Below are positions 51,021 to 62,881 of a stretch of 62,881 nt of DNA, piece by piece. The DNA lies in contig JAIRNY010000003.1 in assembly GCA_031257835.1 (NCBI GenBank), positions 1-62,881 on the forward strand, read 5' to 3'. Each line of letters opens with the position of its first letter. The first letter of the stretch is position 1. The notes beneath the pieces are model-generated. The model did no database searches, was not told the DNA's origin, and saw only the letters and a program-made list of their open reading frames with translations. A program made the position numbers and the translations under genes. The DNA is from Candidatus Endomicrobiellum cryptotermitis. Lineage in GTDB: Bacteria; Elusimicrobiota; Endomicrobiia; Endomicrobiales; Endomicrobiaceae.

Positions 51021-51171
51021 TTTAAAAAAACGTTTGTTTTAGCAAGTCTGCTTATTCTATAAATAAAATAGTTTGTAAGTCAAATTTTTTAAGACGATAT
51101 AGGTGTGGTAATTAAAATTCAAACATATATATAATAGATTTACAGTCACTTGACATAGAAACAGTTAATTT

Positions 51172-51510
51172 GGTCTAGTTTAGAATCTTATTGGAGTTAC
51201 CTCAAAGAGTGGAATATGAGCAATAAACATTTAATATTTCAAAAGGGGTCTGTCTAAAAAATTCTAATGCCTATAATTAATTGCTGTGAATTTTTTGACA
51301 ATTCAAGACAAACACGCAGGGTTTATCGTGTGATAAACACAAGTTTTTTAACGCAGTAGTGTCGAAAAAGGCATAGTAAGGATATGCGCTAAGGTTTTTA
51401 TACAGACCCCTTTCATTGTTTGAAGCAAATTCATTTTTGCTAGTTTGCTAATTTGATTAAATGTTTATTTGCGATGCTCGAGTAACGTAGATAAGAGTCT
51501 AAACTAGACC
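51172..51510 (-). repeat. Nested inverted-repeat element, copy A
   Basis: This 339-base non-coding element has imperfect outer ends. GGTCTAGTTTAGAATCTTAT at the left matches the reverse complement of the right end (GGTCTAGTTTAGACTCTTAT), continuing weakly into GTTAC. Inside is a second element (51246-51409) with its own inverted ends. Read on the minus strand it aligns with copies B and C, but lacks about 25 bases that both of them have before the inner element. No ORF of useful size is present. Confidence 0.85.
51246..51409 (-). mobile_element. Inner MITE-like element, copy A
   Basis: This 164-base element has ends GGGTCTGTCTAAAAA and TTTTTATACAGACCC, which are inverted repeats with one mismatch in 15. 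The interior is nearly identical to that of copy B over long stretches (for example TATCCTTACTATGCCTTTTT on the minus strand). It cannot encode a transposase, so it would be moved in trans. A clear target duplication is not visible. Confidence 0.75.
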
Positions 51511-51530
51511 GACATCAGGGTAATTGCAAA

Positions 51531-51692
51531 ATGTTTCAGAATTTGATAATAATCAGTATTTTTATTTTAGCAGTTGTGTTTTTAATAAAGCGTATAACAA
51601 AAGGTAATTGTAACTGTTGTAAAAAAAATAAAAAAGATTCTAGTTGCCAAAGTAATTGTTTAAAAAATAATTGCAGGAGATATTTTCTATAA
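51531..51692 (+). CDS. FeoB-associated Cys-rich membrane protein-like
   Basis: This is a 53-residue ORF: a hydrophobic helix (MFQNLIIISIFILAVVFLIK) followed by a basic, cysteine-rich tail with seven Cys (GNCNCCKKNKKD, SSCQSNCLKNNC). This layout matches small FeoB-associated proteins, which usually sit next to feoB. No feoA or feoB is present here. A clear ribosome-binding site is not visible (TCAGGGTAA 9-17 bases upstream at best), and it begins only 20 bases after the repeat end, so expression is doubtful. Confidence 0.55.
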   Translation: MFQNLIIISIFILAVVFLIKRITKGNCNCCKKNKKDSSCQSNCLKNNCRRYFL

Positions 51693-53416
51693 AGCGTTTA
51701 TTTTCGTCTTGCATTTTGTTATCTTTTATCGTCAGTCTGTATCGTCCCACTTTTGTAAATGCTTGCACAACAATGATTGTTACAAAAGGTGCAACTTACA
51801 GATGGAAGTACTTTTGTAACCCATAGTGACGACGATGACTTGTCAGATCAAAGTATTATTTATGTCCCGGCTAAAGATTGGCCAAAAAGCGCAAAAAGAC
51901 CAGTTCATGGCACTGCAGTAGCAAATGGAGACCTACCAAGATTTAAAGATTTTTTCGAGCCTCGTTTAGTGGACCCTTCTCGTTCTCCAGATTATGCTAA
52001 TCCGAAATATCCAAAATCAATCCTAGAGGTTATATTCCTCAGGTGCCGTGCCGTGCATATTTAGATGGTAATTACGGTATAGTAAATGACTATGGCCTTA
52101 TGTTTGGAGAATGCACAGATAGTACAAAAGTTACAAATAATCCAGAACCTAGGAAACGCATATTTTATTCTTCAGAACTTTCCATAGTAGCACTTGAACG
52201 TTGTCATACAGCTAGAGAAGCCATACAACTTATAGGCGAACTTATAGAAACGTACGGATATTAGGTATGGTACGGGAGAGACTCTCCCTGTAGCAGACTC
52301 TCAAGAAGCTTGGGTTATAGAAATGGCTCCTTCCCCAGAAGGAACTGGTGGGCTTTGGGTAGCTCAACGTGTGCCAGATGGAGAATTTTTTGTTGCAGCT
52401 AATGAGTTTAGAATAAGAGACATAGTAGCAGGTAATCCAGACCAAATGTATGGCAAAACTCTTTTTGATGTTGTAGAGCGTACAGGTATTCGTAGTCCTA
52501 AAAATAAAAAGAAACCAATGGATTGGTTGACAACTGTAAGTAAAGGAGAGTATAGCCATCCATACTATTCTTTACGCAGAGTTTGGAGAGCTTTTTCTTT
52601 AGTGGCGCCTTCTTTAAAACTTTCACCTTGGGTACAAGATGGTACAACAAGAGCTTACCCGTTTTCTGTTAGACCGGACACAAAGTTAGATCTTTCTGAC
52701 ATAAAAAAGATTTACAGAGATCATTATGAAGGTACGGAGTTTGATTTAACAAAAGGTGTTGCTGCTGGTCCGTTTGGATGTCCCAACAGATATTTAGGTC
52801 CTAAAGATCCTAGCGGAGATGTAGGAAATCCTGATATTAAACTTGAAGGTGCTTGGGGAAGACCAATATCTATGTTTTATACAGGTTACGTTTTCCTTTA
52901 AATGTAGTTTCTTTGATAGCTTTAAACACTCCAGCAGGGTCTGTTTTTGTGCCACTTGCAATAGCTAAAACTCCTATATATTAATGCAAATCCTAAAAAG
53001 TATGATCCTAACTCTGCGTGGTGGACATATAATTTAATTGGCGAATATTCAAATATTAAGTATAGCTATATGATAAAAGACATACAAAAAAGAGCTGCTA
53101 ATTATGAAAAAAGTTCTGAAAAGCTGGTAGAAGATTTAACTTACAAATTACAAAGTTTAGCGAAAACAAATAGCAAAAAAGCTATAGATGAATTTTCAAA
53201 AGCTTTAAACTGGAATGCTGAAGAAGTTCGTAAAGACTGGTAAAACTTTTTTGTTGAACTACGTATTAAATATAATCAAAGTTTTATAAATTCTCAAAAT
53301 AAAATGGCACAAAAAGTTGGTTATAGTCAGGACTGGCTAAAGTATACAAATTATAAACAGGGTCCTACTACATATAAAAAAAATAAAAAGAGAAGTGGAG
53401 AAAAATGGTTAAATTG
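51690..53416 (+). pseudogene. Secreted C69-family dipeptidase, degraded
   Basis: The pieces read in order as a family C69 (U34) dipeptidase: signal peptide and KRLFSSCILLSFIVSLYRPT, then NACTTMIVTKGAT with the nucleophile cysteine. DGSTFVTHSDDDDLSDQSII, NPRGYIPQVP, YLDGNYGIVNDYGLMFGECT, IFYSSELSIVALERCHTARE and GGLWVAQRVPDGEFFVAANE follow, then NSAWWTYNLIGEY. Frame changes are seen near 51797 (an extra T), 52019, 52262 (an extra TAGG) and 52895; a stop is at 53241. The start codon is also lost or unclear (ATA where ATG is expected). Confidence 0.85.
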
Positions 53417-54241
53417 AAGGTAATAATTGTAAGTTTGTTATTTTTTTGTTTGTGACACCAAAACAGAGCTTGGCAGCAACTGATAATGTTTGGTCTAGTT
53501 TAGGGTTAGATGTTAACGGTTAGCTAGACTTTATTGTACAAGGTAGCCCTAGATGTAATATTGCCAGTGGGACAACAAAAAAATTTCAAGAAATGGCAGA
53601 GGGAAGTTTTTTGGGAGATTTGTACATAATTAAGTATGTTAGTGAAGATTCTTTGATACGTACACATTTTAGAGTAACAAAAGGCATAGGTGTAAATGAT
53701 AAATTTTTACTATACAGTTCTTTAAATTCTTGTGTAGGTACAGTTAGTAATTCGACAAATGGTTTCCCTGAATTAGTTGAAGTTCTTTGGGAACAAAACC
53801 TGAACCTGTTTAACAAAAAATTGACGATAGATTTTGGAAAGATTTTCAAAATGAATATGCGCAAGGGTTGGGGTTTAATATAGACCAAGTATTAAGTAAA
53901 ACTGTTATATTGTTTGGCATATTAGGATACCAAAATAGTAACAGTCCTTATATTGTTAACAATACTTACTGTAACAAATCTTGGAGCGCAGGGCTTCAAT
54001 TAAATGGAAATGGCTGGAGTAGATTAAAAAATGTGTTGGACAAAATTTTGTAGAAAAGTATTCATATAAAACGCCTGAAACGCAAACAGAGGTTTATTAT
54101 AAGTATGTGTTGAATAATTCTTTACATATAAGTCCAATTATTCAATATGTAGACTGCCCTTATTCAGATCTTTTTAATAATGAAACGACAACAACAAAAA
54201 ATATTTTTATGTTTAGTGTTAGGACAAATATAACGTTTTAA
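53405..54241 (+). pseudogene. OprB-like porin, degraded
   Basis: A start MVKLKVIIVSLLFFCL stops at 53452-53454. Pieces further on include EDSLIRTHFRVTKGIGVNDK, NMRKGWGLI and SAGLQLNGNGWSRL. The end reads TPETQTEVYYKYVLNNSLHI, SPIIQYVDCPY and FMFSVRTNITF. The final strand pattern (TEVYYKY, PIIQY, terminal Phe) is like that of the intact porin at 12624-13802. Several stops and frame shifts exclude a functional product. It overlaps the end of the dipeptidase remnant. Confidence 0.75.
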
Positions 54242-54322
54242 AAAGGTATAAACTTTATTAAACAATTTGGTAGTTTCTAACTCTAGATTATGGAGATATT
54301 TGTGCTTTGTAGTTAATTAGTA

Positions 54323-54393
54323 TGGAGCTAGCGGGAATTGAACCCGCATCTTATCGTTGCGAACGATACGTTCTCCCGTTTAACTATAGCCCC
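54323..54393 (-). tRNA. tRNA-Ala (anticodon CGC)
   Basis: This is a 71-base cloverleaf on the minus strand. Acceptor GGGGCTA pairs with TAGCTCC and includes the G3-T70 wobble pair that identifies alanine tRNA. Anticodon stem TATCG/CGATA holds TTCGCAA, giving CGC. The T arm GCGGG/CCCGC has TTCAATT. CCA is not encoded. It seems intact although the genes around it are dead. Confidence 0.93.
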
Positions 54394-54478
54394 CCATATT
54401 TAAGACAATAATTATACCAATATTTTTGTGATTAACTCAAATAAATTTGTTGTGGGAGAAACTACTAGGAGATTAAGT

Positions 54479-55672
54479 ATGTATAAAGTTAAAAAATTGT
54501 TTTCAAAAATTTTTGTAATTTTGTCTTTGTTAATTATTCCATTTACAACTAATCATATTGTTGGTTCTCAGCAGCAAACAAAACAAAACCCTATTACTAG
54601 TGAGTTTATCAAAATTTTAAATAAAAATCCTGAAGTTAAAGATTTGATGGTTAAATCTATAGAATTAGCTAGGAAAGTCAATCCAGACATAAAAATTAAC
54701 CCAGCTCAAACGTTAGAAGATTGGTACATCTACATAGACTTGTCTTTAAAAGCAATGCCTTGGAAAGATTTACGTAAAGAATATTTCCCTGGAGTATTTG
54801 AAGGTCTTGATCAGGGGTTAGATTATTTTTATTTTATCTTAGATCAACCTTTACAAGAACTCAAGGGTAAAGGGCTTTATTATAATAGTTTACAATACTA
54901 TGAACCTATACGTTCTTGGATAATTAAGTATGTAAAACAATATGGTACGCACCTAAGTACTAAAAAGTCATGGAACTTAAATTATTATGATGCAATATAC
55001 AACGACTCTCATTTTGGTTTAAAAGATCATGATTGGTATGAAGATCCTAACAATTGGCGTACATTTAACGACTTTTTTTCAAGGAAACTAAAATCCCCAG
55101 ATGCGCGTCCTATTGCAGATAAAGATAAGGTAGTATATATTACTACATACCTAACCTGTTAGGCGAAAAAGAAGATAGCCCTTATAGAGAAACATTTGAT
55201 GGAGGTTATTTAACGCACACTTTCCTTAATGTGCAAGATTATCATCGTTTTCATTTTCCAGTTAGCGGTGTTGTAAGAGAAGTGCGTATAATAGCTCAAG
55301 ATGATGCCGCTGGTGGAATTACAACCTGGGACCCAAAGTTAAAAAAGTATGTTCTTGATAGTAGTGTTCCTGGTTGGCAATCGATAGAAACTAGAGGACT
55401 TGTTATCTTAGAAACAAAAGATTATGGAACAGTTGCACTACTTCCTGTAGGAATGTCCCAAGTAAGTTCAGTTAATTTTGAAGATAATGTTAAAATCGGA
55501 CAACATTTTTCTAAAGGAGACCCGTTAGGATATTTCTTATTTGGAGGTTCAGACTTTATTATGCTTTTCCAAAAAGATTCGGGATTTGAAATGACTGCAC
55601 CAAAAGAACAAAGATGGCAAATATAAACATATTCTCATTGGCAAAAAATACGGTACATTAATCAAAAAGTAA
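54479..55672 (+). pseudogene. Secreted phosphatidylserine decarboxylase-like protein, degraded
   Basis: A good AGGAG site precedes MYKVKKLFSKIFVILSLLII, a signal peptide. The family segments WRTFNDFFSRKLKSPDARPI, VQDYHRFHFPVSGVVREVRI and KGDPLGYFLFGGSDFIMLFQ are clear. The frame shifts at about 55135-55145, and the region that should hold the SPAD-type segment with the catalytic aspartate is missing. A second shift near 55620 hides the end (YKHILIGKKYGTLIKK). The processing motif is GGSD where GGST or GSS is usual. Export is unusual for this family, which normally faces the cytosol. Confidence 0.85.
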
Positions 55673-55725
55673 AAAGTCACGAAAATTTTACACACAAAAC
55701 GTTGTTTTAGAGTTATACTATACAT

Positions 55726-56327
55726 ATGAGGAAAATGAAAATATCTTCATGTTTAGTATTAACAGTTTTAAGTTTAACTTTTGTTTCTTCTAAAAATAAC
55801 TCTTCAGGTGGTAATGTAGCGGATGTAGTAGTTAGAAACGATAAATTTGTAAATCAAGAATCTTCGTCTACAAATGATTTGCAAAGGTTTTATTCAGCTC
55901 AAACTTCTTTACAACTGTCTGCTGTTGAGTCTGAACTTTCAAACGGCAAAAAACTAGCCATTGGATTTGGTATATTTTTCCTCAAATTTATGGACTTGTT
56001 GTTAACCCTAGCCCAACTAACAAATATTACAGCATAAAGACTAGACAAGAAGCTATAGCTTATCTTAACGATGAGTTTTTGTCTAGCAACTTGAAAAAAC
56101 ATGTAACTTTGGTAAGGCGTCACAGTAAAACAAGAACTCTGGGACAAATTTTTGATGGAGATGTTGTAAAATTTGTATCTTCAATGACTTTGTTTGCTCA
56201 GATAGCACAAGAAGAAAGTTGTTTTTCTGGATTTGAAAATGTCTTTTTAGAAACTTTAACAGATTTTAAAGCAGCTCAAGACTCTGCCACTTTAAAGTTG
56301 ATGAAACAAGATTCTTTTAATAAATAG
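55726..56327 (+). pseudogene. DUF1810 protein with N-terminal signal, frameshifted
   Basis: An export signal (MRKMKISSCLVLTVLSLTFV) and a Ser/Asn-rich linker precede DLQRFYSAQTSLQLSAVESE, the start of DUF1810. One frame change near 55960-55970 separates this from YIFPQIYGLVVNPSPTNKYY, SIKTRQEAIAYLNDEF, GQIFDGDVVKFVSSMTLFAQ and the end LKLMKQDSFNK. Only one break is needed to restore the whole protein, so the inactivation may be recent. The role of DUF1810 is unknown; relatives normally lack a signal peptide. Confidence 0.78.
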
Positions 56328-56405
56328 CTAAACATTTAATAAAATTGTGAAAAACTAAAACAAGTTTTTCTGTTATCTTTATACCTGATCTGTAAAGGTT
56401 AGTCT

Positions 56406-56779
56406 GATCTAGTTTAGAAATTTATCTACGTTACAATAGTGATCCACTAAGGTAGCAATCGCAACAAACATTTAAGCAAATAGCAAACTCGCAAAATGAA
56501 AAGACAAGAACGGCTTAAATGAATTTTGCTTCATACAATGAACTGGGTCTGTCTAAAAACCTTAGTGCATATCCTTACTATGCCTTTTTCGACACTACTG
56601 CGTTAAAAAACTTGTGTTTATGACACGATAAACCCTACGTTTTTTGCCTTGAATTGTCAAAAAATTCACAGCAATTATAGGCATTAGAATTTTTTAGACA
56701 GACCACTTTTGAAATATTAAATGTTTATTGCTCATAAGCTGCTCTTTTAGGTAATTCCGGTAAGGTACTAAAATAGGTC
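56406..56779 (+). repeat. Nested inverted-repeat element, copy B
   Basis: This 374-base element lies in the opposite orientation to copy A. Its outer left end GATCTAGTTTAGA pairs imperfectly with the right end CTAAAATAGGTC. It shares with copy C the stretch from the left end to TTTTGCTTCA-ACAATGAA and contains the inner element at 56545-56704. It separates the dead DUF1810 gene from dnaX. The right outer end is more degraded than in copy A. Confidence 0.8.
56545..56704 (+). mobile_element. Inner MITE-like element, copy B
   Basis: This 160-base element has ends GGGTCTGTCTAAAAA and TTTTTTAGACAGACC. It starts after AATGAACT, whereas copy C reads AATGAA at the window edge, so the insertion site within the outer element appears to be the same. 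No ORF. The long interior match with copy A suggests recent or conserved duplication. Confidence 0.75.
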
Positions 56780-62638: not shown

Positions 62639-62742
62639 TAGCTTAACTAGTTTTAAGAGAAAAGAAGAATTTTGTTTATAAAATAGTTTGTAGAGCCAAT
62701 TTGTAGAGCCAAATGGTTAAGTGAGTGCAGATGGTGTGGTTT

Positions 62743-62881
62743 GATCTAGTTTAAAACCTTATCTACGTTACTAGAGTGTCTGACTCGGAGAGCAATCGCA
62801 AATAAACATTTAATCAAATTAGCAAACTCGCAAAATGATAAGACAAGAAAGACTTAAATGTATTTTGCTTCAAACAATGAA
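62743..62881 (+). repeat. Nested inverted-repeat element, copy C (cut by window end)
   Basis: It starts GATCTAGTTTAAAACCTTAT and continues with CTACGTTAC, GCAATCGCAA and GCAAACTCGCAAAATGA, matching copy B in the same orientation, up to CAAACAATGAA at the last base. The inner element would start just beyond the window. The gap 62639-62742 has no gene; it holds a 13-base tandem repeat (TTTGTAGAGCCAA at 62687 and 62700). Confidence 0.8.

Follow-up and report, generated by a model that had tools for sequence, protein, structure and literature searches.

Two nested families of non-coding repeats in Candidatus Endomicrobiellum, with cores probably flipped and exchanged at shared sites

Two separate repeat families, an outer core that forms an imperfect palindrome of approximately 200 bp and an inner MITE nested within it, were identified in the window, a stretch of 62,881 bases that comprises the entire contig C13 of the source genome (G000). 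Both families are new, of a known kind and display an unusual evolutionary pattern. The explanation we consider probable is that they are non-autonomous and non-coding, that the inner element became nested once, that the forms with and without it both multiplied, and that cores were flipped and exchanged in place. Candidatus Endomicrobiellum (Elusimicrobiota) is an endosymbiont of termite-gut flagellates. The source genome is a draft of 1.05 Mb in 28 contigs with 87 % completeness, and all genomes utilized here were draft MAGs.

Three copies of the elements had been described in an earlier note on this sequence. Copies A and B, the latter on the opposite strand, were recovered as described, and copy C does begin at 62743 and end at the inner insertion point, which is also the end of the contig. 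The features of the window are:

51107 to 51113, plus strand: left-hand GGTAATT, putative target-site duplication of site A, single in the empty sites of genomes G031 and G020, two in G000 and G017
51114 to 51171, plus strand: left 'X' arm, 58 nt, outside the outer ends first proposed; missing in the empty G031 and G020 sites, present in G017
51172 to 51510, plus strand: copy A, outer core (imperfect palindrome) enclosing the inner element
51246 to 51409, plus strand: inner MITE of copy A, 164 nt, ends GGGTCTGTCTAAAAA / TTTTTATACAGACCC
51511 to 51518, plus strand: right arm, 'Y' remnant GACATCAG, of the unit at A, from empty-site comparison
51519 to 51525, plus strand: right-hand GGTAATT of the same putative duplication
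56406 to 56776, minus strand: copy B, outer core and inner element; the right-hand end, in window orientation, is degenerate
56545 to 56704, minus strand: inner MITE of copy B, 160 nt
62743 to 62881, minus strand: copy C, partial outer core reaching the inner insertion point, ended by the contig end
14019 to 14060, minus strand: separate 42-nt piece from the left arm of the outer (BLAST, outer positions 29-70, 90 % identity)

The ends of copy A pair over 29 nt with 83 % complementarity, and the inner inverted pair lies at 51242-51260/51395-51413 in copy A and at 56546-56559/56691-56704 in copy B. Both copies are intergenic. Copy C is incomplete because contig C13 breaks there; this end and that of contig C12 overlap exactly over 119 nt, which is the signature of an assembly-graph fork at k=119, the assembly k-mer length read from the contig names. 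Other contigs of G000 with ends inside these elements were C4, C8, C12, C20, C25 and C27. Whole-genome matches to the elements reach E=1e-96 to 1e-50, and chance is therefore ruled out for the repeats.

Separate searches with the outer and inner sequences revealed that outer-only, inner-only and composite copies all occur in G000. Approximately 40 outer-bearing places were present across its 1.05 Mb, in keeping with the high copy number anticipated from the window, and approximately 15 of these carried the inner element. The inner-free outers comprised eight full-length copies with a clean, uninterrupted site and two further copies with internal deletions, whilst two copies were inner only. 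Roughly 30 more inner-free outers with the intact, uninterrupted site were found across three relatives (G017, G023 and G031). Only the stretches around matches were read, and the site tables are therefore incomplete. The clean outer-only copies show that the nesting suspected from the window holds, and a single composite element is ruled out by the occurrence of outer-only and inner-only copies. Elsewhere in the genus, the inner element was detected in nine other genomes and the outer in three of these nine, the relatives named above; G020 displayed about 15 inner matches without any outer. When the inner element was searched for exactly, with both of its ends intact, Candidatus Endomicrobiellum cubanum and Ca. 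E. incisitermitis were also represented among the contigs identified.

Its parent element aside, the inner element behaves as an ordinary MITE. It is 160-164 nt long, has no coding capacity, occupies many intergenic places and carries terminal inverted repeats of 14-15 bp with GGGTCTGTCTAAAAA at both ends. Allowing up to two mismatches, this end pattern yielded 34 matches in G000, compared with four for a reversed control pattern. An exact 4-bp target duplication flanked 6 of 18 solo inner elements (0.9 expected, P=5e-5), and these duplications were AT-rich (AAAT, ATTT, TAAA, TTAT). The folding z-score was approximately -4 against shuffled sequence. MITEs derived from insertion sequences, such as the IS982-derived MITE of Cardinium (PMC9769881), are similarly short, non-coding and equipped with terminal inverted repeats and a target duplication, and the Cardinium element is also multi-copy in a host-restricted endosymbiont. 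In contrast, the inner element has other ends, is a passenger inside another repeat and was found without a parent IS. A DDE_Tnp_1 family scan found no such gene in G000, G017, G023, G031 or G009, and an exact-end scan of 40 genus genomes yielded, among the loci read, no ends that faced each other at the spacing of an IS; with these two scans, a parent transposase or full-length IS was found for neither the inner nor the outer element. Spaced matches to the terminal inverted repeats in G033, G013, G010 and G020 were considered as a possible full-length IS and rejected, as they were mostly wrong-facing and flanked ordinary genes. In a tree of inner copies, the inner elements of A and B were sisters, and one solo inner clustered with nested copies. 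A solo inner in G020 (L258) lies in the intergenic region upstream of dnaX like composite B, but at a different position.

The outer core has GGTCTAGTTTAGA ends, terminal inverted repeats of about 20 nt and a folding z-score of approximately -7 against shuffled sequence. Covariation was weak, at 5 of 61 pairs with a covariation term of -0.39, and therefore we make no claim of a selected RNA structure; of the Rfam models, only three tRNAs matched in the window, and the outer matched no Rfam family. GGTCTAG, the core end given in the earlier note, does not mark the end of the unit inserted at A, where empty sites show a larger unit. No direct repeats were found at the GGTCTAG boundaries, and a target-site duplication directly outside these ends was thus rejected. 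G031 and G020 have an empty site A containing one GGTAATT, and the true insertion in G000 spans 51114-51518 (X arm, core and a few right-hand bases) with GGTAATT on both sides, as is also the case in G017. For X arm, core and Y together, a clean empty site with a single target is seen at A, other sites being less clear. The 7-bp duplication is clear at A alone and only suggestive at C2:12575, where the repeat TAAATGT was read from the flanks at matching places, and at C2:8279. Since these other loci are less clear than A, a duplication of 7-9 bp serves as a working value. X arms at other loci are similar in sequence with a small hairpin inside, and in the loci checked they always adjoin outer cores. 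Core-free X arms were considered as target sites, of which these loci provided no example. At the insertion point, the empty site A of G031 (L214) contains an additional repeat of 18 nt, AATATACATAATATACAT, which is not in G020.

Copy B is not present upstream of dnaX in G017 and G031, and sits in a segment of about 600 bp unique to G000; the C2:8279 site is empty in G031 and G020. The empty sites for A, B and C2:8279 indicate that new sites were gained over time, and the sister relationship of the inner elements of B and A suggests that copy B may represent recent local spread.

Flanks of the elements were compared between genomes, and a site occupied in at least two species was regarded as shared (n=22). 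Flanks of shared sites were approximately 88-98 % identical, with the same boundaries. By hand tallies in which many sites are partial, core orientation was mixed at 13 of the 22, and at about 15 the species differed in whether they carried the inner element. Tandem copy number also differed between species at shared sites. Site A contains outer and inner elements in G000 and an inverted, outer-only copy in G017, and the X arm occupies the same side in these two genomes. Similarly, C4:111092 is outer-only in four species, with G000 and G023 sharing one orientation and G017 and G031 the opposite one, and the X arm keeps its side whilst the core flips. With a fixed X arm and a flipped core, whole-unit reinsertion cannot account for either of these sites. 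The branching of G000, G017 and G031 by dnaX had a support of 0.28.

Pure transposition, whereby each species independently received whole units at common hot spots in random orientation, is therefore an unlikely account of the shared sites. It predicts the random orientation and the variable inner content, and inverted cores at shared sites were no more alike than unrelated copies (mean excess in identity 0.001, n=10). Set against this, both species at site A have the same GGTAATT repeats around a core that alone is inverted, the fixed arm recurs at C4:111092, and every X arm in the checked loci adjoins a core. The solo inner located upstream of a gene for a ychF-like GTPase, found at the same site and in the same orientation in three species (L010, L147 and L165), is a control for vertical inheritance, and it is no more than 88-90 % identical among them. 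Because this control is equally diverged, identity cannot separate replacement from vertical descent, and judging replacement by identity alone was dropped; we propose replacement because inner presence or absence differs, not because of identity. Loss of the inner element by excision is unsupported, given the uninterrupted site in nearly all outer-only copies. From these comparisons we infer recombination or conversion in place through the inverted arms of the core, with enzyme and route to be read as conditional.

It is improbable that the core is turned between its GGTCTAGTTTAGA ends by a recombinase dedicated to this task, which would make the cores invertible switches. Terminal inverted repeats of about 20 nt, near-random orientation and fixed flanks would all fit such an enzyme, but the tyrosine recombinases of G000, G023, G031 and G020 were XerC/XerD-like only, and flipping by itself cannot gain or lose the inner element. 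We likewise give little credence to a broader version, in which the outer core is a dispersed invertible cassette and a recombinase or unusually active recombination flips and swaps this core at dozens of fixed sites with the inner element as cargo. Were this so, the expression of neighbouring genes would possibly be changed.

The same relative place of the inner element, first noticed in A and B, extends throughout the composites. In G000, G017, G023 and G031 the inner lies between outer positions ~74 and ~79 and on one strand in approximately 42 of 42 places. Inner-free outers read CAAATTAGCA uninterrupted, with an excision scar missing in nearly all, whilst the composite junction reads CAAAAG[inner]NATTCA. 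Almost every composite has AAAG at its left junction, and in none of those does AAAG recur on the right. From one site, one orientation and no fresh duplication we infer that the inner element inserted once, before the G000 lineage separated from its three relatives. The earlier note had offered two options, a composite moving as one unit or a single insertion after which the pair multiplied, and the single site and orientation fit the latter. Its picture of multiplication needs widening, however, as jumps to new sites alone do not suffice and exchange and flipping at occupied sites also took part.

Repeated site-specific insertion, with the inner element targeting a hot spot in the palindromic outer and composites arising many times, appears very unlikely. 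IS1397-like elements target REP palindromes, and repeated insertion would account for the differing presence of the inner at shared sites. It is opposed by the single orientation of the composites and by an insertion point that is off the palindrome centre. Furthermore, no AAAG-junction composite has a matching 4-bp duplication, unlike the solo copies, and AAAG[inner]NATTCA departs from the empty AAATTAGCA in a shared, already decayed way. Also very unlikely is an assembly artefact in which misjoined repeats of short-read MAGs give false flips and swaps: several contig ends do fall inside the elements, with exact 119-nt overlaps, but copies away from contig ends share at most 69 identical consecutive bases, fewer than k=119, making misassembly unlikely, and the pattern recurs across four separately assembled genomes. 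Strain mixtures could add to the pattern.

Under the preferred explanation of a single nesting followed by exchange in place, an inner MITE of about 160 bp would have entered one copy of the palindromic outer before the lineages split, and its ancestral 4-bp duplication would have decayed after insertion. The composite would then have multiplied alongside the older outer-only form, both versions spreading and gaining sites. At occupied sites, the pattern is one of cores flipped, and of inner-carrying and inner-free versions exchanged, whilst the flanking arm stays. A plausible route is homologous or template-switch recombination across the inverted arms of the core, with other copies as donors. 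RecA was intact in all six genomes examined.

A precedent for the composites is provided by ERIC, longer copies of which carry an internal insertion at a fixed place. Like the outer, the ERIC, Correia (NEMIS) and RUP elements are imperfect palindromes of 100-200 bp, intergenic and present in tens of copies (PMC2229807, PMC10969869). The outer is unrelated to them in sequence and phylum, and the comparisons here show, in contrast, that the insert belongs to a mobile family of its own and that cores lie inverted between species at shared sites. The Rickettsia palindromic elements, likewise repeated palindromes from an intracellular bacterium, are inserted within genes and in frame (PMC2229807), whereas copies A and B lie between genes. 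In chloroplast hairpin inversions (trnH-psbA), a segment between short inverted repeats likewise flips repeatedly in place, but these are single-copy organelle loci without dispersed-copy exchange or a nested mobile element (PMC2903610). A survey published in 2024 looked for transposases and CRISPRs in the group and reported transposons in over half of the genomes, and passages of its main text make no mention of repeats of either kind (PMC11257099). The present data trace a nested, non-autonomous element through several species of a lineage whose mobile repeats, as far as those passages go, have hardly been described. Shared sites whose contents are flipped or exchanged allow jumping to be told apart from recombination, a distinction seldom available for palindromic repeats in bacteria. 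Such sites also account for the breaks of these draft genomes at composites.

At four loci (L140 at G031:C17:1659-2328, L141, L143 and L130), two to four outer cores follow one another in tandem, all facing the same way. The spacers between them are related, 22-100 nt long (e.g. AACCAAACTATTTCGCAGATATT in G023) and link an X-arm start with a Y-arm end. Repeated coding-like flanks occur beside several cores (L119, L062, L140 and 62640-62742 of the window), for example with a peptide like LREEKDFVYKVSVYRDKWLGQYAEGKAIS. The outer left arm reads open as ESYRSYLKERxMSNKHLILQIS, so that in-frame fusions with it may be possible. Just downstream of copy A, a peptidase C69-like gene (51700-52901) appears split into two reading frames, 51777-52064 and 52323-52901, and its G017 orthologue reads through at least 170 codons.
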